Shown here piece by piece: positions 38,441 to 61,770 of a stretch of DNA of 64,000 bases. This DNA is from Seleniivibrio sp. (lineage in GTDB: Bacteria > Chrysiogenota > Deferribacteres > Deferribacterales > Geovibrionaceae). Position numbers and translations under genes: made by a program. Every line of letters begins with the position of its first letter. The first letter of the stretch is position 1. The DNA lies in NCBI RefSeq assembly GCF_021209385.1, contig NZ_JAJOIL010000021.1, positions 1-64,000 on the forward strand, in the 5' to 3' direction. The notes under the pieces were generated by a model. That model was not told the DNA's origin. It did not search any database and saw nothing but the letters and a program-made list of their open reading frames with translations.

Positions 38441-38455
38441 TGATTATCATAATCA
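38441..38455. promoter_or_regulatory. Fur-like box upstream of the encapsulin operon
   Basis: TGATTATCATAATCA is a perfect 7-1-7 palindrome matching the Fur consensus TGATAATnATTATCA except for one symmetrical pair. It ends five bases from the ribosome site of the cargo gene. Confidence 0.72.
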
Positions 38456-48984: not shown

Positions 48985-49419
48985 TCAGCAGTTAAGTCTG
49001 AGAAGCGGGTCGGATTTTTTAGCCATTTTTATGTTGAATCTGTCGGTATTTATCGTGAATCGTTCGTGTGTTCCTTTGCCTATCAGCTCTTTTTCGTCCC
49101 ATGCTTCCACTTCCCACAATGTCTTCTGTCCGTCCACTCCGGTGCATACGGCTTTTGCGCGCACCTTCATGCCGACAGGGGTTGCCGCGCAGTGGGTGAC
49201 GTTGACATTTATGCCTACGCTCTGTTCGCCTTCGTCAAGATGCGGAGCCAGCGCCTCCATGCAAGCCCATTCCAGAAAGCCAACCATATAGCCGGTCGCA
49301 AAAACCTTCGGCATGGTCGAGAAAAGTTTCGATTCGGGATAAAGATTCGGCACGGTCTTATTTTCATTCACAGTTAATTCAATTTCTGCGGTTGTTCCGA
49401 CTTTGATAGTGTCTTTCAT
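48985..49419 (-). CDS. Hotdog-fold thioesterase (FlK-like)
   Basis: 144 residues from the ATG at 49419 (CGGAGG upstream); a start 19 codons earlier lacks a site. Hotdog fold with ATGYMVGFLEWACMEAL helix, GINVNVTHCAATPVGMKVRA and WDEKELIGKGTHERFTINTDRF, as in the FlK/fluoroacetyl-CoA-thioesterase-like family of acyl-CoA thioesterases. Catalytic Thr/Glu/His candidates are present in the helix and the HxAxTP stretch. Its 250-base leader contains the strong Fur box at 49667-49685, though at a large distance. Confidence 0.8.
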   Translation of the reverse strand: MKDTIKVGTTAEIELTVNENKTVPNLYPESKLFSTMPKVFATGYMVGFLEWACMEALAPHLDEGEQSVGINVNVTHCAATPVGMKVRAKAVCTGVDGQKTLWEVEAWDEKELIGKGTHERFTINTDRFNIKMAKKSDPLLRLNC

Positions 49420-49710
49420 GGTTAACCTCCGTATGGCTGGTTTAACTAATATCGGAGTGAACGGATGCTGCTGCAAGTTTTAAGAAAAGGTTTGAGATAT
49501 ATTTAGAAAATCATATAATTACATTGTGGTCGGGGTACGGGCTTAAGGCATTCTGCGATGGTCTGAAATCGGAGATTTCGTCCAGTTAGCGTTGGGTTGA
49601 CAATCGTGGAAAATAGTGCCGAAAGCCCGCTCGGGCACCCCGTTAAAATGCCAAACGGGCAATATTGATAATGAATATCATTATCCGGCTGTGATTTCAA
49701 GCGGAAAAAT
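49420..49710 (-). other. Structured stretch below a strong Fur box, candidate small RNA
   Basis: No convincing protein: a 65-codon minus-strand frame at 49503-49700 has no ribosome site and no recognisable features. On the minus strand the region carries a GTGCC..GGCAC-type hairpin near 49617-49638 and GAAATC/GATTTC near 49565-49579. A Fur-regulated transcript starting near 49660 could be a small RNA or a long leader of the thioesterase gene. Confidence 0.4.
49667..49685. promoter_or_regulatory. Strong Fur box
   Basis: GATAATGAATATCATTATC matches 17 of 19 positions of the classical Fur consensus GATAATGATAATCATTATC and is a near-perfect palindrome. It lies just past the end of the FeoA-like gene and 248 bases before the thioesterase start. 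Confidence 0.82.
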
Positions 49711-50397
49711 CTATTCGGCGTTTATTTTTTCAGCAGTGCTTTCCGATATAAACACCCGAAGCCCCTGTGCCGTGCATATGACCATGTCGGGATAGTCGTC
49801 CAGATGGACGGATTTACCCGTTTCGATACCCTCAAGGGTCAGCGGCGTGCCTTGCTGTATTCCGTTTACGGACATTACCTGTGCGTAGGTTTCCTGACTC
49901 AAAAGTTCATCGACTATGAAATCCCTGCTTTTCGATGCGAAGGAAAACTGTTTTCCGTCGCCCAGAATACATGCCGCGTGTGCTTCCGAAAGACGGCATC
50001 TGGTCTTGTGTCCCACTAGCGTGATATACTCCATATGTGGGAGTTTTCTCATCACCTGTATAGTGTCCCCGCCTTTTATGCCTAGTCTTGCCATATCTTT
50101 TGCCGCTGTTTTCGGTACAACAACTGTGAAATCTGTACCTGTTTCATGTTCATATATACTGCGCTTTTCGCCGGAAGGCGATTTATAGAAAAGGTGTCTC
50201 GCCAGCGAACCGCTCAATGCCTTCGTAACTTCTTTCACGGATATTTTCAGCGTTGCCAGTTCTATGTCACCTCTGCCTACCTTTGAAACTATGGTTCCGG
50301 CGAATATGCCGTATGCGCCCAGCCTGCGGGCTAGTTCAGCGTCTTTCACGGATATCACTTTATAAAAGCCTCCGCTTTTTGCATCGGACAGTTTCAT
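49711..50397 (-). CDS. FeoA-like repeat protein at the end of the metal cluster
   Basis: 228 residues. The N-terminal 75 residues have the SH3-like FeoA pattern (GGFYKVISV, ARRLGAYGIFAGTIVSKVGRG). Weaker repeats of the 'LGIKGGDTIQVM' and 'GIQQGTPLTL' type follow near residues 110-125 and 175-190, suggesting two or three FeoA-like modules. FeoA normally assists the ferrous iron transporter FeoB, which is absent here. The ATG overlaps the stop of the first P-type ATPase gene by four bases, so the two are co-translated and the metal is probably iron. Last gene of the cluster. Confidence 0.7.
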   Translation of the reverse strand: MKLSDAKSGGFYKVISVKDAELARRLGAYGIFAGTIVSKVGRGDIELATLKISVKEVTKALSGSLARHLFYKSPSGEKRSIYEHETGTDFTVVVPKTAAKDMARLGIKGGDTIQVMRKLPHMEYITLVGHKTRCRLSEAHAACILGDGKQFSFASKSRDFIVDELLSQETYAQVMSVNGIQQGTPLTLEGIETGKSVHLDDYPDMVICTAQGLRVFISESTAEKINAE

Positions 50398-52496
50398 TTC
50401 GTTCTCCCGCTCTGAGAAAGGCTCAGAGCATAAAGCAGTGTTCCAAGAGTGGTTCCGTTGTGCATAACGGCAGATTGCAGAGGGCTGATGCGCCCCATGA
50501 CGGACAAAAGCACCGTAATTGTGTTGATGCCGATGTTTGCAACGGATACCCTTTTTATGACCTTCATGGTGCGTTCCGCTGTGATGCGCGCTGTGAGTAT
50601 GCCGCGCAGGTCGTTGCGCAGAAGGATAACGTCGGATGTTTCCCGCGCAAGGTCTGCTCCTTCGGGCATGCTGATGCCGACGTGAGCGGAGAGCAGAGCC
50701 GGAGCGTCGTTCACCCCGTCGCCTACGAAGGCTATTCTTCTCCCTTCCGCTTTGAACTTGTTCACGACGTCCAGTTTGTCTTCAGGCTTCATCTCAAAAT
50801 ATACTTCTTTGATGCCAAGTTCTTTGGCTATGTGATTCGCCGTGTCCCTGTGGTCGCCGGTAAGCATCACAACTCGGTCGATGCCGCGCTTTTTCAGATC
50901 TTTTATGACCTGCGAGGATTCGTTTCTCGGCACGTCTTTAAGGGCTATTATGCCAGACAGTACACCGTCGCATGCCACATACAGGATGCTTTTGCCTGTT
51001 TTTCGCAGTTTATCTGCAGTGTCGTCCGCCATTGAGCAGTCGATGTGTTCATCCTCGTGGATGAAGTGTCTGCTTCCCGCCAGAACGTGTTTTTTGCCGA
51101 CGTACGCCGAAACGCCGTGGGCTATGATGAAGTCCACCTCCCCTGTTTCCTCAAGGGGGATATTCCTTTTTTCCGCTTCTTTAACAACTGCCGCCGCTAT
51201 GGGGTGGCTGTAATGTTCTTCGGCACTGGCGGCGGTTCTCAGAATTTCCCGCTCGTCCATATCCGAAAAACTTAAGATATCCGACACCTCAAGGGTGCCT
51301 TTCGTCAGCGTCCCCGTCTTGTCGAATATTATAGTGTCGATCTTCGCCATGTTTTCAAGTGACTGCGCGCCCTTTATAAAGATGCCTTCGGATGCTGCGC
51401 AGTACATGCTGGATTTGATGGCTGTGGGTGTCACAAGTTTCAGAGCGCACGAATAATCCACGGAAAGCACCGATGATGCCCTGCGGAAATCGCGCGTCAG
51501 TAAAAGTGTGCCAAGCCCTATGCCGAAGGTTACGGGAACCATCCTGTCGGCAATTTTGAATGCCTGAACTTCCGTGTTTGAACGGTTTTTCAGTGAGTTG
51601 TTGATGAATTTTGCGATTCTGGCGGTTGTGGTTTCCGCACCCACCTTCCGCGCTTCGATGATGAGCTTTCCTTCCGCAACGACAGTTCCTGCGTATACTT
51701 CACTGTCGTATCCGGCGGTAACGGGGAGACTTTCCCCTGTGACAGACGCCTGATTGATAAGCCCTTCGCCGCTTTTTACTATACCGTCGACGGGTATCAT
51801 CTCCCCTGCGCCTATGATGACGTGGCTGCCCACAAGCACTTCACCGATTGGTACTTTTTTCTCGGTTTGTCCGTCAAGAATCCAGACGTATTCCACGTCG
51901 GGCTTTATGAGGCTTTTCAGCATCCTGTCTGATTTGTACTGGGTGGACGCTTCAAGATAGTGTCCGAGGTTCAGCAGAAACGTGATGGAACCCGCTGTAA
52001 AATAGTCTTTGCGCATAAGGAGCATGGATACCACTGCCGCATCCAGAACTTCAACTTTCAGACCATCGTTTACAAGTGTGTCTATCCCTTTCAGAAGAAC
52101 GGGAGCCGCGCCTGCGAATGTCAGCGGCGTACGGAACCACTGGGGCAGAACCAGCTTTGAAAGCCACATTGAACCGGCCCAGTAAACGTTTATGAGGTCG
52201 GGCGAATCCACAAGTTCCTCTTCTGCCTGAAAAACGGCATGGGAGAAGGTCTGCAGTGTGGAAAGGAGGGGTTCGGTCATCTCTCTGCCCTTTTCGTGTT
52301 CAACCACAAGGGTATTTGCGCGCTGATTGACGCGAACGGAGGTCACTCCGTTGATGCACTCCAGAGTGGATTCCAGCAGTGTACAGTCAAGGGCGGGGTT
52401 GCCTAGCACCCCCGCCTTAAGACGAATCCTGCTGTCAGTTTTGTGAGCGATGCTCACGCTTTCAAATCCCGTAGGATAATGTTTTTTCTTCGTCAT
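50394..52496 (-). CDS. P1B-type metal ATPase lacking CPC, FezB/P1B-6-like
   Basis: 700 residues. The N-terminal HMA-like domain (about 1-85) lacks the CxxC pair. Then membrane helices, actuator with SVTGESLPV, a membrane segment SVDYSCALKLVTPTA where copper and zinc pumps have CPC/CPH, phosphorylation site FDKTGTLTKG, the nucleotide-binding SHPIAAAV pair and GDGVNDAPAL hinge, and two final helices. The SCA-type motif is, to my knowledge, that of P1B-6 ATPases such as the ferrosome protein FezB. Substrate Fe2+ is inferred from that and the FeoA-like neighbour. It overlaps the genes on both sides by four bases. Confidence 0.85.
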   Translation of the reverse strand: MTKKKHYPTGFESVSIAHKTDSRIRLKAGVLGNPALDCTLLESTLECINGVTSVRVNQRANTLVVEHEKGREMTEPLLSTLQTFSHAVFQAEEELVDSPDLINVYWAGSMWLSKLVLPQWFRTPLTFAGAAPVLLKGIDTLVNDGLKVEVLDAAVVSMLLMRKDYFTAGSITFLLNLGHYLEASTQYKSDRMLKSLIKPDVEYVWILDGQTEKKVPIGEVLVGSHVIIGAGEMIPVDGIVKSGEGLINQASVTGESLPVTAGYDSEVYAGTVVAEGKLIIEARKVGAETTTARIAKFINNSLKNRSNTEVQAFKIADRMVPVTFGIGLGTLLLTRDFRRASSVLSVDYSCALKLVTPTAIKSSMYCAASEGIFIKGAQSLENMAKIDTIIFDKTGTLTKGTLEVSDILSFSDMDEREILRTAASAEEHYSHPIAAAVVKEAEKRNIPLEETGEVDFIIAHGVSAYVGKKHVLAGSRHFIHEDEHIDCSMADDTADKLRKTGKSILYVACDGVLSGIIALKDVPRNESSQVIKDLKKRGIDRVVMLTGDHRDTANHIAKELGIKEVYFEMKPEDKLDVVNKFKAEGRRIAFVGDGVNDAPALLSAHVGISMPEGADLARETSDVILLRNDLRGILTARITAERTMKVIKRVSVANIGINTITVLLSVMGRISPLQSAVMHNGTTLGTLLYALSLSQSGRTK

Positions 52497-52690
52497 GACC
52501 TGTTTTTGTATAAAAATGTGTGGTAAACCGACAAGCCCACCAGAGCCACCCCTGCGATGGAGTGGATGTTTCTTGAGGTTTTACCCTTGTTGAATCCTGA
52601 AACCACCAGAACTCCAAGTGCCGCCGTCATGGCGTATTTGGTGTATCTGCGTTTCTTCTGCATGGGGCTTAATTTTTTTTCTTCGGGCAT
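52493..52690 (-). CDS. Small two-helix membrane protein (65 aa) of the metal cluster
   Basis: A Lys/Arg-rich start (MPEEKKLSPMQKKRRYTKY) is followed by two hydrophobic helices (about 20-34 and 44-60) joined by a basic loop NKGKTSRNIH. Two histidines, in NIHSIAG and SVYHTFLY, lie on the second helix 13 residues apart, a spacing seen in membrane haem- or metal-binding helices. No family assigned with confidence. It overlaps the ATPase start by four bases, so it may be a subunit. Confidence 0.65.
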   Translation of the reverse strand: MPEEKKLSPMQKKRRYTKYAMTAALGVLVVSGFNKGKTSRNIHSIAGVALVGLSVYHTFLYKNRS

Positions 52691-52691
52691 G

Positions 52692-53012
52692 TTATTCTCC
52701 GCCCATCTCCGCCTGAACGTCTCTTATCTGTTCTTTCAGTTCTTCAACGCCGCCCTGAAGACCGCCCCATACCTTAACAACGCCTTTTACGATGGCTTTT
52801 TTAACTGCGGGGTTGGTGAGGACGAGTGCTATGCCTGCGCCGATAACAAAGCCTTTAACATATGACGGCTCGCGGAAGTTGAACCATTCTTTAAGATGGC
52901 TTGCTGCTGTGTGCTGCTGGGGATAGTATGCCTGCTGTTGTGCATACTGGGGTGCGTAGTAATGCTGTTGTTGCTGTCCTTGTCCCGCTTCGGGTGCTTT
53001 TTGCTGTTCCAT
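52692..53012 (-). CDS. Gln/Tyr-rich membrane protein of the metal cluster
   Basis: 106 residues. The first 40 are low-complexity Gln, Tyr, Ala and Pro (repeated YAPQYAQQQAYYPQQ pattern). A hydrophobic segment with GxxxG-like spacing follows (YVKGFVIGAGIALVLTNPAV), then a basic/amphipathic KKAIVKGVVKVWGGLQGG and an acidic helix. The segment KGFVIGAGIALVLTNPAVKK is closely echoed in the 169-aa protein upstream (KGLVMGAGLAMLLSSESVR), so the two belong to one family. Likely a membrane-shaping or scaffolding component of the cluster's compartment. Confidence 0.72.
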   Translation of the reverse strand: MEQQKAPEAGQGQQQQHYYAPQYAQQQAYYPQQHTAASHLKEWFNFREPSYVKGFVIGAGIALVLTNPAVKKAIVKGVVKVWGGLQGGVEELKEQIRDVQAEMGGE

Positions 53013-53014
53013 GA

Positions 53015-53341
53015 TTAGCTCTCCTTAACTGTTTCTGTATTTGTCGGTTTAACTGATGAATCCCAAAGATATTTCGCGCCTGCTGACGCCGCTGTGAAGG
53101 CTATCAGGGACATAAAGACCCCGAAACCGAACATGCTTGCCGCGGCAACGCCCGCTGCTGTGGCGATACCAGTCCCTGCCGCTTCCTTTACAACGTTCTC
53201 TGCTGCCTGTTCTTTTGTTATCTTTCCGGCTTTGTAGTCTTTCGTCTGTTTTGCGGCAGACACCGCGCCCCCGATGACCGCGCCTGCCAGAGCGCCCGAT
53301 ACCGTCGCCCTGCCGATTGATGACCCTATATGCTTGCTCAT
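53015..53341 (-). CDS. Glycine-zipper membrane protein of the metal cluster
   Basis: 108 residues with two hydrophobic Gly/Ala-rich hairpins: GALAGAVIGGAVSAA (about 16-30) and GTGIATAAGVAAASMFGFGVF (about 56-85), separated by a charged helix (KQTKDYKAGKITKEQA). Small residues at every fourth place suggest tight helix packing in the membrane, as in magnetosome and other organelle-associated small proteins. No named family. It overlaps the neighbour upstream by four bases. Confidence 0.7.
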   Translation of the reverse strand: MSKHIGSSIGRATVSGALAGAVIGGAVSAAKQTKDYKAGKITKEQAAENVVKEAAGTGIATAAGVAAASMFGFGVFMSLIAFTAASAGAKYLWDSSVKPTNTETVKES

Positions 53342-53847
53342 ATCTGTTCCTCCGAATCCTCTGTGAACATACCTACTGTTTTTCCGAGAATGTCGCTCAG
53401 TGCGGAACGCACCGATTCACTGCTTAAAAGCATTGCCAGTCCGGCTCCCATGACCAGCCCCTTGATGAAGTCGCTGCCTGTGGCGTTCACCATCCTGCTG
53501 ACCTCCGAAAGCTGAGGGTTGCCCTCTATCATCTGCCCGAACATACCCATAATTCCGCTCATGGGGTCTTCCTGCCGGTGGTGTCCGCAATGCTCCTCGT
53601 GTGGAGGCATGGGCGGAGCGGGCTGAAAACCGTATTGCGGCGGATATGGCGGCATATACGGGGGGAACGGCGGATAGGGAGCATATCCCTGCATGGGCGG
53701 ATAGCCGGGGGGCGGATACATGTAAGGGTTATAGTAGCCTCCCATATACGGGTTGCCCATGAACGGCTGCTGTCCCGTTTCCGGGTTCTGCATCTGCTCG
53801 CTGAACCCCTGCTGTTCGGGTGTTTCGTTTGTTTCTTTGTTTTCCAC
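53338..53847 (-). CDS. Pro/Tyr/Gly-rich protein with membrane segment
   Basis: 169 residues. About 25-90 is Pro, Tyr, Met and Gly low complexity (PPPGYPPMQGYAPYPPFPPY). A His-rich patch HEEHCGHHRQE follows, which could bind metal, then an amphipathic helix and a hydrophobic stretch KGLVMGAGLAMLLSSESVR similar to the 106-aa protein. The acidic C terminus has DILGKTVGMFTEDSEEQ. Low-complexity surface domains of this type may scaffold or concentrate iron, but that is speculation. AGGAGGG precedes the ATG. Confidence 0.72.
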   Translation of the reverse strand: MENKETNETPEQQGFSEQMQNPETGQQPFMGNPYMGGYYNPYMYPPPGYPPMQGYAPYPPFPPYMPPYPPQYGFQPAPPMPPHEEHCGHHRQEDPMSGIMGMFGQMIEGNPQLSEVSRMVNATGSDFIKGLVMGAGLAMLLSSESVRSALSDILGKTVGMFTEDSEEQI

Positions 53848-53888
53848 AAAACCCTCCTTTTATATTTTTTTGATTCTGATTAGTGTGG

Positions 53889-53976
53889 TGAGACTGCCGC
53901 GTCAGCCTGAAAGCTTCCTCGCAGAGACGGATAAATTACTGTCTTCGCGAGGAGCGTAAGCAACGAAGCGATCTCA
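53889..53976. repeat. Dispersed palindromic repeat, copy C
   Basis: The clearest copy: TGAGACTGCCGCGTCAG to CCTCGCAGAGACGG, an 11-base spacer, then GTCTTCGCGAGGAGCG to GAAGCGATCTCA. The arms are imperfectly complementary. It directly abuts the stop codon of the HMA-like gene (53977-53979). Confidence 0.7.
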
Positions 53977-54288
53977 TTAACTTATAAAATCTTCGTACTT
54001 TTTAAGCACCGCGAGGCTTTCGCTGTCGGATGCACCGAAAAGCACAGCCATGTCCACCGGATGTATCACCGCAGGGTCATACCGCAGAACCACCGAACGC
54101 GCGAGCATGTTCACCCGCTTGTCCAGCACGCCCGGAATGGATGCGCTTATCTCCTCCAGTCTCTTGCTCACAGGGTCTTTCATAATCGCGGGGTCGACCT
54201 TGAGCCTGATGCGCCCTTCAACGTGATGCACCACAGAGACATATTTTTTTACTGCAAGAAGTTCCTCAATCATTTGTTTCTCCGTCAT
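53977..54288 (-). CDS. HMA-like domain protein without CxxC (FezC-like candidate)
   Basis: 103 residues. Ferredoxin-like HMA pattern: VSVVHHVEGRIRLKVDPAI, SASIPGVLDKRVNMLARSVVLRYDP. The CxxC metal-binding loop is replaced by HHVEGR. The same 'GR(I/V)RLK' type strand begins both ATPases of the cluster, so it is a stand-alone relative of their N-terminal domains. It overlaps the second ATPase gene by 23 bases. A heavy-metal-associated partner of this kind is, as I recall, a regular member of ferrosome clusters. Confidence 0.72.
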   Translation of the reverse strand: MTEKQMIEELLAVKKYVSVVHHVEGRIRLKVDPAIMKDPVSKRLEEISASIPGVLDKRVNMLARSVVLRYDPAVIHPVDMAVLFGASDSESLAVLKKYEDFIS

Positions 54289-56413
54289 AGTTCATAAGTC
54301 GGGACGAGTTCGCCATTATACCGCCGGTGTGGGCTATGTGCAGAAGCCCTGCCATAACGGGGTTCAGGATGCCCACAGCGCCAAGAACCGCTCCTGCGAT
54401 ATTGGTTGAAGTAGCTATTGAAAAATTCTGATGTATTATCGTTTTTGTTTTCTTGCTGAGCTGACGGAGGAAGATTATCTTGTTCAGATCGTCGTCCACC
54501 AGCGCTATGTCTGCCGCTTCAACGGCAACGTCGGAACCTGCCGCACCCATGGCTATGCCAAGGTCGGACTGCGCCAGAGCAAGAACGTCGTTGATGCCGT
54601 CGCCTATCATCGCAACCTTATGGTCTTTCTGTATAGTTCTGATTATGTCCGCTTTGTCCTGCGGCAGAACGGAATAGTGACATTCGTCAAAACCAAGACG
54701 CAGAGCTAAAGGTTCTGCCGACTGCTTTTCGTCGCCAGTCACCATTATGAGATTTTTTACGCCGTCTTTGCGCAGTACCTCTATCATCTCGGCAACACCC
54801 TCTTTGTCCTGCGTGCGGATGGAGATGATGCCAAGAAGTCTGCTGTCTTCTGCGACGTAGAGAACGCTTTTGCCCTCTTCCGCCCATTTTTCGGCACGTT
54901 TTTTCACTGTGCCTGTTTTTATGCTGAACCTGTCCATGAGCTTTCTGTTGCCGACACATACTGTGCCTTCGGCGGTGTCAGCCGCAACGCCCATGCCTAG
55001 GATGGTTTCGCATACCGCGTGGTCGGGCTTTTCCAGACAGAGCTGTTCAGCTTTTTTGCGTATCGCCGCCGCCATGGGGTGACGGTTGTGCAGTTCTGCG
55101 GCGTATGCTCTCATGAGAAGATCCTGCTCCGACCAGCCTTTCAGAGGATGGATATCTATTACCTCAGGCATGTCGGTGGTTATTGTCCCTGTTTTGTCGA
55201 AACAGAATGATTCCTGTTCACCCGCATCCTCAAGGTACCGCCCACCTTTGATGAGAACACCCTTCGATGCCGCGTTGCCTATGGATGCGCTCACCGCAGA
55301 TGATGCCGCCAGTGCGGTAGCACAGGGACAGGTCATAACGAGCATGACAGAAAGTGTTCTGGAAAGACTGCGGGTCAGCAGGAAGGTTCCTGCCGTCATC
55401 ATGAATCCCAGCCCCACCAGCTTTTTAGCGAGTTTATCCGCCTCAAGCTCAATAGGTGCTTTGTTTTCCAGAGATGTTTCCACCGCCTGCAAAATGCGCG
55501 CAAGATATGTGCTGTCGCCCACTCTGTCCGCGCGGATGTATATCAGTCCGTCCTGAACGTAGGTTCCGGCATAGACGGATTCTGATTTGACCTTGTGAAT
55601 GAGTTCCTGACGACCGTTTATGGGGGCTTCGTTCACCATCGCCTCGCCGCGGATTATCTCGCCGTCGACGGATATCTTTTCACCTGTGCGCACTATCACT
55701 GTCGCGCCCTGTTCCACTTTTTCAACTGGGATCTCAAGTTCCCGTCCGTTGATGAGTACGAACGCAGTTTTTGCGGTGACGTCCAGAATGTTTTTGATTG
55801 ATGCGCGGGATTTTTCTGTGATGTGTTCCTGCATGAGTTCCGCGCCGCTGTTCACCCAGAGAATTTCAAGGGCGGTCATGGTTTCGCCTGTGAGAAGCGC
55901 TGCGCCCACGCCGGCTCCGAGAAACGCGTCCAGTCCGATTTTTTTATCTTTCAGTGTTTTCGATACGGCGGTGTAAACAAGGGGTGCCGCGAAGAATGCC
56001 GTAAAGAACCACATGGGGCTGAAAACAGCCTGTGAAAGAACTTTACCGAAAAGTTTTTTTGATATGAAAGACGCGCCTGTCATAACAGTAAGCGCGGCGA
56101 ACTCTGTTTTTTTGTTGAGAAGAGCCAGTCCGTCCTTCGCATCGGAACAGGCACAGTCTGCCTTTACGGATTCGGCGGGAGCCAGTTTAACCTGTTTTAT
56201 GACCGAAACTGCGTTGACGATGTCCGAAACGGAGAGGATGGAACCGTCGTAGGCAACGATAAGGCTTGCGCATTTTCTGTTGCAACGCACTGATGATATA
56301 CCCTGTTTTGATGAAAGGACGCTGATTATGGATGAGCAAAGATTTTGCTCTTGTCTGAGAATGGGATATTTAAGCCTTACCCTGTTGGGGGCGGAATGAG
56401 CTATCTTTAACAC
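54266..56413 (-). CDS. P1B-type metal ATPase with CPC motif
   Basis: 715 residues, first gene of the cluster. Degenerate HMA-like N terminus (APNRVRLKYPILRQEQ), a hydrophobic linker (about 110-190), actuator with the TGES-like loop changed to PINGRQELI, the metal-site helix VMTCPCATALAAS, phosphorylation site FDKTGTITTD, RHPMAAAI and GDGINDVLALAQSD. The missing TGES glutamate (NGRQ) is notable because that residue drives dephosphorylation, so the pump may be slow or regulatory. The CPC motif by itself would suggest Cu+, but the context suggests iron handling. A weak Fur-like site lies 117 bases upstream. Confidence 0.85.
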   Translation of the reverse strand: MLKIAHSAPNRVRLKYPILRQEQNLCSSIISVLSSKQGISSVRCNRKCASLIVAYDGSILSVSDIVNAVSVIKQVKLAPAESVKADCACSDAKDGLALLNKKTEFAALTVMTGASFISKKLFGKVLSQAVFSPMWFFTAFFAAPLVYTAVSKTLKDKKIGLDAFLGAGVGAALLTGETMTALEILWVNSGAELMQEHITEKSRASIKNILDVTAKTAFVLINGRELEIPVEKVEQGATVIVRTGEKISVDGEIIRGEAMVNEAPINGRQELIHKVKSESVYAGTYVQDGLIYIRADRVGDSTYLARILQAVETSLENKAPIELEADKLAKKLVGLGFMMTAGTFLLTRSLSRTLSVMLVMTCPCATALAASSAVSASIGNAASKGVLIKGGRYLEDAGEQESFCFDKTGTITTDMPEVIDIHPLKGWSEQDLLMRAYAAELHNRHPMAAAIRKKAEQLCLEKPDHAVCETILGMGVAADTAEGTVCVGNRKLMDRFSIKTGTVKKRAEKWAEEGKSVLYVAEDSRLLGIISIRTQDKEGVAEMIEVLRKDGVKNLIMVTGDEKQSAEPLALRLGFDECHYSVLPQDKADIIRTIQKDHKVAMIGDGINDVLALAQSDLGIAMGAAGSDVAVEAADIALVDDDLNKIIFLRQLSKKTKTIIHQNFSIATSTNIAGAVLGAVGILNPVMAGLLHIAHTGGIMANSSRLMNYDGETND

Positions 56414-56529
56414 ACTAACCGTCCTGTGCGCCCTATGCCCGAAAGGGAGCAGATTTGTTAATGTGTCAACCCGAACGCTTATCCAATGTTAAGCACCGCA
56501 CACACCAAAAGTCAACTTTTTTTCAAATA

Positions 56530-56544
56530 TGAAATTGAATATCA
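56530..56544. promoter_or_regulatory. Weak Fur-like box upstream of the metal cluster
   Basis: On the minus strand TGATATTCAATTTCA agrees with TGATAATnATTATCA at 11 of 14 informative positions. It lies just after the AGCS terminator and 117 bases before the first ATPase gene. Confidence 0.4.
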
Positions 56545-56604: not shown

Positions 56605-57945
56605 TTATTTTTTTAAATTGGCAAAATAGTCTTTCGTTTCCGCAAAGACAACGGATGAGAGACCCAGAAGACCAATAAGGTTGGGCAGAGCCATAAGCCC
56701 GTTGAAAATGTCCGAAAGCAGCCAGACGATGTTCAGTTTTGCCATAGCGCCGATGCCTATGAAGAGGATGAAAACTATTCTGTAGGGTGTGATGGATTTC
56801 ACGCCGAACAGGTATTCCATAGACTTCTCACCGTAATAGCACCAGCCAAGTATGGTAGAATATGCAAACAGCGCAAGGCTTATGGCAACAACTATGGGTC
56901 CAGCGGAAAATCCGAGTGAGAAAGCGTGGTTTGTAAGATCAGCTCCGTTTTTGCCTATGTCCCACGCGCCTGTGCAGATAAGCACAAGACCTGTCATTGT
57001 GCAGACGATAAGCGTGTCGATAAACGTCTGGGTCATGGAAACCAGCGCCTGTGAAACAGGATGCTTTGTCTGAGCAGCTGCCGCCGCTATGGGCGCACTG
57101 CCGAGACCTGATTCGTTGGAGAAAACACCTCTGGCAACACCCATGCGGATTGCCATCATAACGCTTGCACCCGCGAAGCCGCCAGATGCCGCGGTGGGGG
57201 TGAACGCCTCTGCAAAGATAAGCGCGAACGCCGCAGGAATTTTATCTGCGAACATCACAAGGATGATCAGTGCGCTTATTATATAGAAAATTATCATGAT
57301 AGGTACGAGAACGCTCGTTACTCTTCCGATGGATTTGATTCCGCCCAGAACAACCAGAGCGGTGAACACCATCAGCACGAGACCTGTTGCATAGGTCGGT
57401 ACGTTGAATGTGGAGCGCAGAGCGTCCGCAACGGAGTTAGCCTGAACCATGTTGCCTATCCCGAAAGATGCCACAACAGCAAACACCGCGAACAGTGCGC
57501 CCATCCATTGCCATCCGAGACCGTTTGAAATGTAATACATCGGACCGCCGCTCATGTTGCCGTTTTCGTCAACTTCGCGGTATTTAACAGCAAGAACAGC
57601 TTCCGCATATTTGGTCGCCATGCCCACAAGACCTGTCACCCACATCCAGAACATTGCACCGGGTCCGCCCAGAGCGATAGCCGTAGCAACCCCCGCTATG
57701 TTTCCTGTTCCCACTGTGGCGGACATTGCCGTCATCAGTGCCTGAAAGTGTGTGATGTCGCCGGGTTCGTCGTCGTACTCTTTGCGTTTAACAAGTGCAA
57801 GCCAAAGTGCGTAAAAAAGTTTAGTAAACTGAAGAAAACGAAGATTTAATGTGAGGTAGATGCCTGTTCCAACCAGAAGCACAAGGAGCGGTACGCCCCA
57901 GATAAAGCCTCCGATGGTATTTAATATGTTTTCAAACTGTTCCAA
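56605..57945 (-). CDS. Alanine/glycine:cation symporter (AGCS family)
   Basis: 446 residues from a TTG at 57945, chosen because AGGAGG lies six bases upstream and the protein then starts at the usual family position. About eleven membrane helices. AGCS signatures: [47 protein letters not shown] and [25 protein letters not shown]. Imports alanine, glycine or related amino acids with Na+ or H+. Single-gene unit with its own terminator. Confidence 0.94.
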
Positions 57946-58073
57946 ATAAAACCTCCTTCTTTTGACTGTGTTAAACTTAACATTAATCATAGAAAATCTC
58001 AATACATTAAGAACGTGGATTCATCTGACAGATAGGTGAAGTTTGTGATTTGGAGAAATTTAATTAAGTTTAG

Positions 58074-61691: not shown

Positions 61692-61770
61692 TCAGATCGC
61701 CGCGTCGCTGACGCTCCTCGCGAAGACGAAAACTGTCTCTGCAATGGTTTTAGCCCGAAGCAGTCTTATT
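61692..61770. repeat. Dispersed palindromic repeat, copy D
   Basis: AGATCGCCGCGTCGCTGACG, CTCCTCGCGAAGACG, a short spacer and CTGTCTCTGCAATGG to GCAGTCTTATT. Same two-arm order as copies B and C. It lies between the CCG-domain gene and the cytochrome gene. Confidence 0.65.

Follow-up and report, generated by a model that had tools for sequence, protein, structure and literature searches.

We interpret the eight-gene locus at positions 49711-56413 on the minus strand of a Seleniivibrio contig as an expanded ferrosome (fez) operon, which, taken whole, is the best explanation for the data and to which we assign a probability of roughly 85%. The window, i.e. the whole stretch of DNA analysed, comprises 64,000 nucleotides and belongs to a 2.9-Mb genome (G000). 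A ferrosome locus had been proposed in the initial annotation of this DNA, and the computed gene content, homologies, conserved gene order and motif losses support this proposal. The interpretation is favoured because the locus encodes an ATPase falling into a FezB-like clade together with the fez ATPase of Desulfurispirillum indicum, a protein with FezC homology and the invariant histidines of this family, and a FezA-like protein of a family adjoining FezB. It is further favoured because P1B-6 ATPases have been listed as an Fe(II) class, the homology of another small protein to MamC withstands controls, the gene order recurs in a second phylum and a Fur-like site is found at a conserved place.

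The nearest database records for the locus originate from Seleniivibrio woodruffii and Deferribacteraceae, with 97% identity across a fragment containing TM4. The cluster is flanked by genes encoding an AgcS-type amino-acid carrier (56605-58002) and a FlK-like thioesterase (48985-49476), and in between it encodes, in this order, an ATPase with a CPC motif, an HMA-like protein, a Pro/Tyr-rich protein, a MamC-like protein, a FezA-like protein, a FezC-like protein, a FezB-like ATPase with a DYSCAL motif and a FeoA-repeat protein. The eight minus-strand reading frames are present as initially described; the tight overlap claimed for all of them does not hold at one gap of 129 nt, the successive junctions measuring -23, +129, -4, +2, +1, -4 and -4 nt. 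The interval had been drawn up to position 56544, of which the genes account for the part up to 56413, and 56414-56544 represents the upstream region with a Fur-like palindrome. The single loose junction, between the HMA-like and the Pro/Tyr-rich gene, contains a palindromic REP-like element (53850-53976) with a folding energy of -38.6 kcal/mol (z -3.16, better than 200 of 200 shuffles), which has a similar stretch in another locus (L038) and a partial copy at positions 61694-61727 of the window. This element is probably an insertion and not a functional part of the cluster.

The FezB-like, P1B-6-type ATPase of 700 aa (50394-52496, minus strand) was assigned by its tree clade, its motifs and its orthologues. 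It retains TGES, DKTGT, HP, TGD and GDGVND, and its TM4 reads VDYSCALKL. Within a maximum-likelihood tree of 66 rows, which is unrooted and thereby shows separation but not descent, it falls into a FezB-like clade of 32 rows with a support of 100/100. This clade includes members from Chrysiogenia, Helicobacter, Gammaproteobacteria-like genomes, Sutterellaceae, Spirochaetota and Bacillota as well as the fez ATPase of D. indicum (G042), the latter anchoring the assignment in place of the experimentally tested FezB of other species. Clustering with Cu/Zn/Co pumps had been named beforehand as the result speaking against a ferrosome; the tree places all 27 CPC/CPH P1B ATPase rows, including the four other P1B ATPases of the same genome, outside the FezB-like clade, and we rejected a Cu/Zn/Co efflux operon since the FezB-like ATPases group apart from such pumps. 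Among solved structures, CopA-type pumps come closest to the DYSCAL ATPase. A published listing gives Fe(II) as the ion transported by P1B-6 ATPases (PMC7558416). Two loci (L235, L236) carry a tandem pair of FezB-like ATPase genes, ahead of which an HMA domain joined to a transmembrane segment with His is encoded.

The gene overlapping the FezB-like gene encodes a FezC-like protein of 65 aa (52493-52690, minus strand), recognised by its family profile, its invariant histidines and a weak DUF4405 similarity. The family profile, which was built without the D. indicum protein, matches the D. indicum protein overlapping the end of FezB with E=4.8e-26. D. indicum FezC was published as a ferrosome cytochrome with heme b spectra and a DUF4405-like domain (PMC11334425), the matched protein being equated with the accession of that study by genome and position. 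His43 and His57 (numbering of the window protein) are the sole invariant residues across 23 FezC-like sequences, 14 of which weakly match DUF4405 (best E=0.0014). Judged from these features, the protein is probably a heme-binding cytochrome. A 124-aa protein encoded beside MamC in one magnetosome cluster with MamX and MamZ over their cutoffs (L175, 5412-6417), i.e. in one of 13 magnetosome-type loci, shows a weak match to the FezC profile (E=0.002) and the same H-x13-H spacing.

The FezA-like GxxxG protein of 106 aa (52692-53012, minus strand) has a Gln/Tyr-rich N-terminus and was identified by profile homologues adjoining FezB, i.e. by homology and place next to FezB and not by sequence identity with FezA of C. 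difficile. Its homologues are present at all tallied loci of Geovibrionaceae, other Deferribacterales, Chrysiogenia, Helicobacter and Spirochaetota, at 17 of 23 loci of Desulfobacterota, 12 of 13 of Pseudomonadota and 10 of 17 of Bacillota/Actinomycetota. As a rule the FezA-like gene lies immediately 5' of FezB, as it does in D. indicum, and in the window it lies upstream of FezC-FezB. The Pro/Tyr-rich protein of 169 aa (53338-53847, minus strand) matches the profile of the FezA-like family and is its paralogue; the related KGxVxGAGxA segments pointed out earlier are KGLVMGAGLAM at its C-terminus and KGFVIGAGIAL in the Gln/Tyr-rich protein. Clusters of the Desulfobacca acetoxidans type carry the Pro/Tyr-rich gene at the same place.

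The complete set of eight genes occurs in the window and in the eight further Geovibrionaceae genomes that bear fez genes, and mechanical gene calls in the relatives reveal the same eight-gene order in five Desulfobacterota genomes (G627, G669, G668, G620 and G470, the last of which we take to be Desulfarculus baarsii). Because of this recurrence in the family and the identical order in the five Desulfobacterota genomes, the cluster is conserved far beyond chance. The description as an expanded variant is borne out by two extra parts that recur, the CPC ATPase and the FeoA-repeat protein. G620 carries, besides its eight-gene cluster, a separate simple FezA-FezB-HMA cluster (L200, L241).

The other P1B-type ATPase, the second of the cluster (54266-56413, minus strand), has 715 aa with a GTG start codon and was characterised by Pfam/NCBIfam matches, motifs and tree clade. 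It has an HMA_2-like N-terminus, CPC in TM4, DKTGT, HP, TGD and GDGIND, and its TGES loop reads NGRQ; both the CPC/DYSCAL pair of ATPases and an altered TGES loop had been noticed in the initial annotation, and the change is one of TGE to NGR. All 11 homologues, from two phyla, lack the TGE glutamate, which is replaced by Arg, Val or Gln (NGRQ, NGRS, NGVS, TGQL, TGRV, TGRA, NGRA), and, where sequenced in full, they retain the phosphorylation motifs and the nucleotide motifs. These CPC enzymes form a clade of their own supported by 100/100, in which UBA5754 represents the second phylum. In P-type ATPases, E2P is dephosphorylated through the action of the TGE glutamate. The second ATPase lacks the actuator glutamate expected of a normally cycling P1B pump; since the residue dephosphorylating E2P is missing, these enzymes are predicted to phosphorylate yet to turn over poorly, and the window protein probably can still be phosphorylated without having the glutamate for dephosphorylation. 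That two phyla retain such a P-type ATPase next to FezB points to a use other than ordinary pumping.

The HMA-like protein of 103 aa (53977-54288, minus strand) matches PF19991 (HMA_2-like) with E=2.3e-6 and 28.1 bits, just below the Pfam cutoff of 30, and has homologues in nearly all fez loci. As described before, it contains no CxxC; there is no cysteine at all. At the other end of the cluster, the product of 49711-50397 (minus strand) contains FeoA domains (PF04023, E=4.6e-11, two stretches), and homologues follow FezB in Geovibrionaceae and Desulfobacterota. The FeoA assignment made earlier therefore stands and the proposed fusion does not, the gene encoding a stand-alone protein of 228 aa. 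The fez clusters of Helicobacter and Chrysiogenia (L058-L069, L154-L156) have a further gene after the HMA-like gene, mostly of about 200 aa.

Efflux operons commonly contain two P1B ATPases and HMA-like proteins, and the organelle proposed for this organism is predicted from genes, so that the cluster might also be read as a cell-membrane efflux or detoxification operon for ferrous iron or another metal, with two P1B pumps and small metal-handling proteins and no organelle. We regard this as unlikely, since the FezB-like ATPase is separate from the canonical pumps, its constant FezA-like, FezC-like and MamC-like partners are not known from efflux operons and the second ATPase lacks the TGE glutamate.

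Among the small proteins, for which Gly-zipper segments had correctly been reported, the FezC-like protein and a MamC (Mms13) homologue of 108 aa (53015-53341, minus strand) had gone unrecognised. The latter matches the NCBI MamC model NF038051 with E=4.9e-16, and its 58.8 bits fall short of the 100 bits set as the curated cutoff for the magnetosome MamC equivalog; 27 of 28 aligned sequences match this model at E<0.01. A magnetosome-only profile, built from the 13 Pseudomonadota MamC proteins exceeding the cutoff, gives 60.9 bits for the window protein, and when searched against 17,256 ORFs of fez loci it yields 27 hits (E up to 0.24, some loci having been entered twice), all of which are MamC-like genes of fez clusters, with no off-target match among these ORFs. 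In the reverse direction, the profile of the fez MamC-like proteins matches magnetosome MamC proteins at E of about 1e-24 to 1e-13, including the MamC of a cluster in which MamX and MamZ exceed their cutoffs. The homology spans about 80 residues with the same loop pattern.

A glycine-zipper membrane protein unrelated to MamC, encoded in an ordinary fez cluster, could in principle produce such a similarity by its Ala/Gly-rich transmembrane composition. The protein has 21% Ala and 12% Gly, the HMMER bias terms of the Geovibrionaceae matches amount to 11-18 bits, and the AlphaFold model of three helices is of low confidence, its mean pLDDT of 69.9 being insufficient for a search by fold; no solved structure matched the protein. 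All scores quoted are bias-corrected, and against the 60.9 bits of the protein, none of 20,000 shuffles of its composition exceeds 14.7 bits. These shuffles and the absence of off-target hits led us to reject a composition artefact, which the reverse match of magnetosome MamC (~1e-20) and the loop pattern common to both proteins render very improbable. By homology in both profile directions and beyond composition, the 108-aa protein is a member of the MamC family.

It is conserved at this place in several phyla. In 51 Deferribacterota genomes there are 9 MamC hits, all below the cutoff and each about 1 kb or less from FezB. In 398 Pseudomonadota genomes, 13 hits exceed the cutoff and 2 fall below it; both of the latter lie between the Pro/Tyr-rich gene and FezA-FezB, and none of the 13 genomes with a MamC over the cutoff has a FezB match. 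The phylum of UBA5754, which includes D. acetoxidans, provides 10 hits in 247 genomes, none over the cutoff and all beside fez-type genes, two of them on short contigs showing part of the cluster. By the fez profile, all 11 Helicobacter fez clusters contain a MamC-like gene, 4 of which are also found by the magnetosome profile. One of the 10 hits in the phylum of UBA5754, that of G667, is accompanied by FezA-like and FezC-like genes, with no DYSCA ATPase shown. Positions 3138-10157 of L197 display MamC-like, FezA-like and FezC-like genes and no DYSCA ATPase, and a further P1B ATPase (CPCGIGL) is encoded between the HMA-like and the Pro/Tyr-rich gene.

Fez and magnetosome MamC copies form separate groups supported by 99/99, in a tree that shows this separation and not the direction of any transfer. 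Despite the MamC homologue, we rejected as hardly credible that the locus is what remains of a magnetosome cluster, or is related to one, and produces a magnetic mineral, given the 58.8 bits against the cutoff of 100, the separate groups and a scan of the eight genes and both flanking genes that yielded no further mam gene. MamD, searched without a positive control, gave no match in the whole genome. Glu66 and Asp70 of MamC have been linked to magnetite (PMC6584501). The apparent counterparts in the window protein, in an alignment made without the reference sequence, are Gln and Asn, which fits a putative filling other than magnetite. We found no literature tying MamC to ferrosomes in a search that did not cover the founding ferrosome papers, so that prior notice of the homologue or of the eight-gene form is possible.

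Upstream of the first gene, a Fur-like palindrome (TGATATTCAATTTCA on the minus strand; 56530-56544) agrees with the consensus in 11 of 14 positions and is a candidate site for the repression by Fur expected of ferrosome clusters. Sites of this quality number 10 in the window compared to 4.7 expected from simple shuffles, meaning that the palindrome by itself lacks significance; at the same aligned place, a Fur-like palindrome with 11-13 of 14 positions occurs in each of the four remaining Seleniivibrio genomes. A stronger palindrome (13/14) is located at 49666-49680, 3' of the FeoA gene and before the FlK-like thioesterase, and further ones (12/14) are found at 38441 and 38515.

For the ferrosome operon, we infer from the sequences iron as the substrate, the formation of an organelle and roles for the added parts, resulting in a model according to which the cluster would make an iron compartment. 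FezB would pump Fe(II) into vesicles, which the GxxxG proteins, i.e. the FezA-like protein and its Pro/Tyr-rich paralogue, may help to form or coat. The FezC-like protein could pass electrons via its two histidines, thereby adjusting the redox state of iron across the vesicle membrane, and the MamC-family protein may reside in this membrane and, like MamC in magnetosomes, organise or limit the enclosed mineral. Fe(II) might be presented or sensed from the cytoplasmic side by the HMA-like protein and the FeoA-repeat protein. The loss of the TGE motif would make the CPC ATPase a slow or arrested partner serving as scaffold or gate and not as a normal pump.

Going further, the MamC family could be a general part of lipid-bounded iron organelles, ferrosomes and magnetosomes having shared or exchanged parts for mineral control, and there could be a ferrosome subtype in which a poorly dephosphorylating P-type ATPase acts as structural or gating partner of FezB; we see the odds for this combined proposal as even. 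Ferrosomes, which are membrane-bound iron stores, have only lately been described, and for most proteins involved no role has been assigned. The occurrence of MamC homologues in fez clusters from several phyla would provide a molecular link between two lipid-bounded bacterial iron organelles and an entry into the control of the ferrosome mineral.

Comparison with known systems places the locus as follows. The second ATPase shares CPC, DKTGT, HP, TGD and GDGxND with the P1B heavy-metal pumps CopA and ZntA; in contrast to these, it has no TGE glutamate, a loss common to the 11 homologues, and belongs to the separate clade. FeoA has the PF04023 domain in common with the window protein, which differs as a repeat protein of 228 aa that closes a fez operon and has no FeoB partner. 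The MamC-like protein resembles the alphaproteobacterial magnetosome MamC (Mms13) in being a small membrane protein, in the homologous ~80 residues and in the loop pattern, whereas it scores under the cutoff, falls into a separate clade, is surrounded by fez and not mam genes and has Gln/Asn at the apparent counterparts of Glu66/Asp70. The ferrosome clusters of Desulfovibrio magneticus, Rhodopseudomonas palustris (six genes, RPA2333-2338), C. difficile (fezA-fezB) and D. indicum have their FezB-like, upstream FezA-like, FezC-like and HMA-like components represented in the window, which carries a MamC homologue that published clusters may share, and which adds to them the CPC ATPase devoid of the TGE glutamate and the FeoA-repeat protein.
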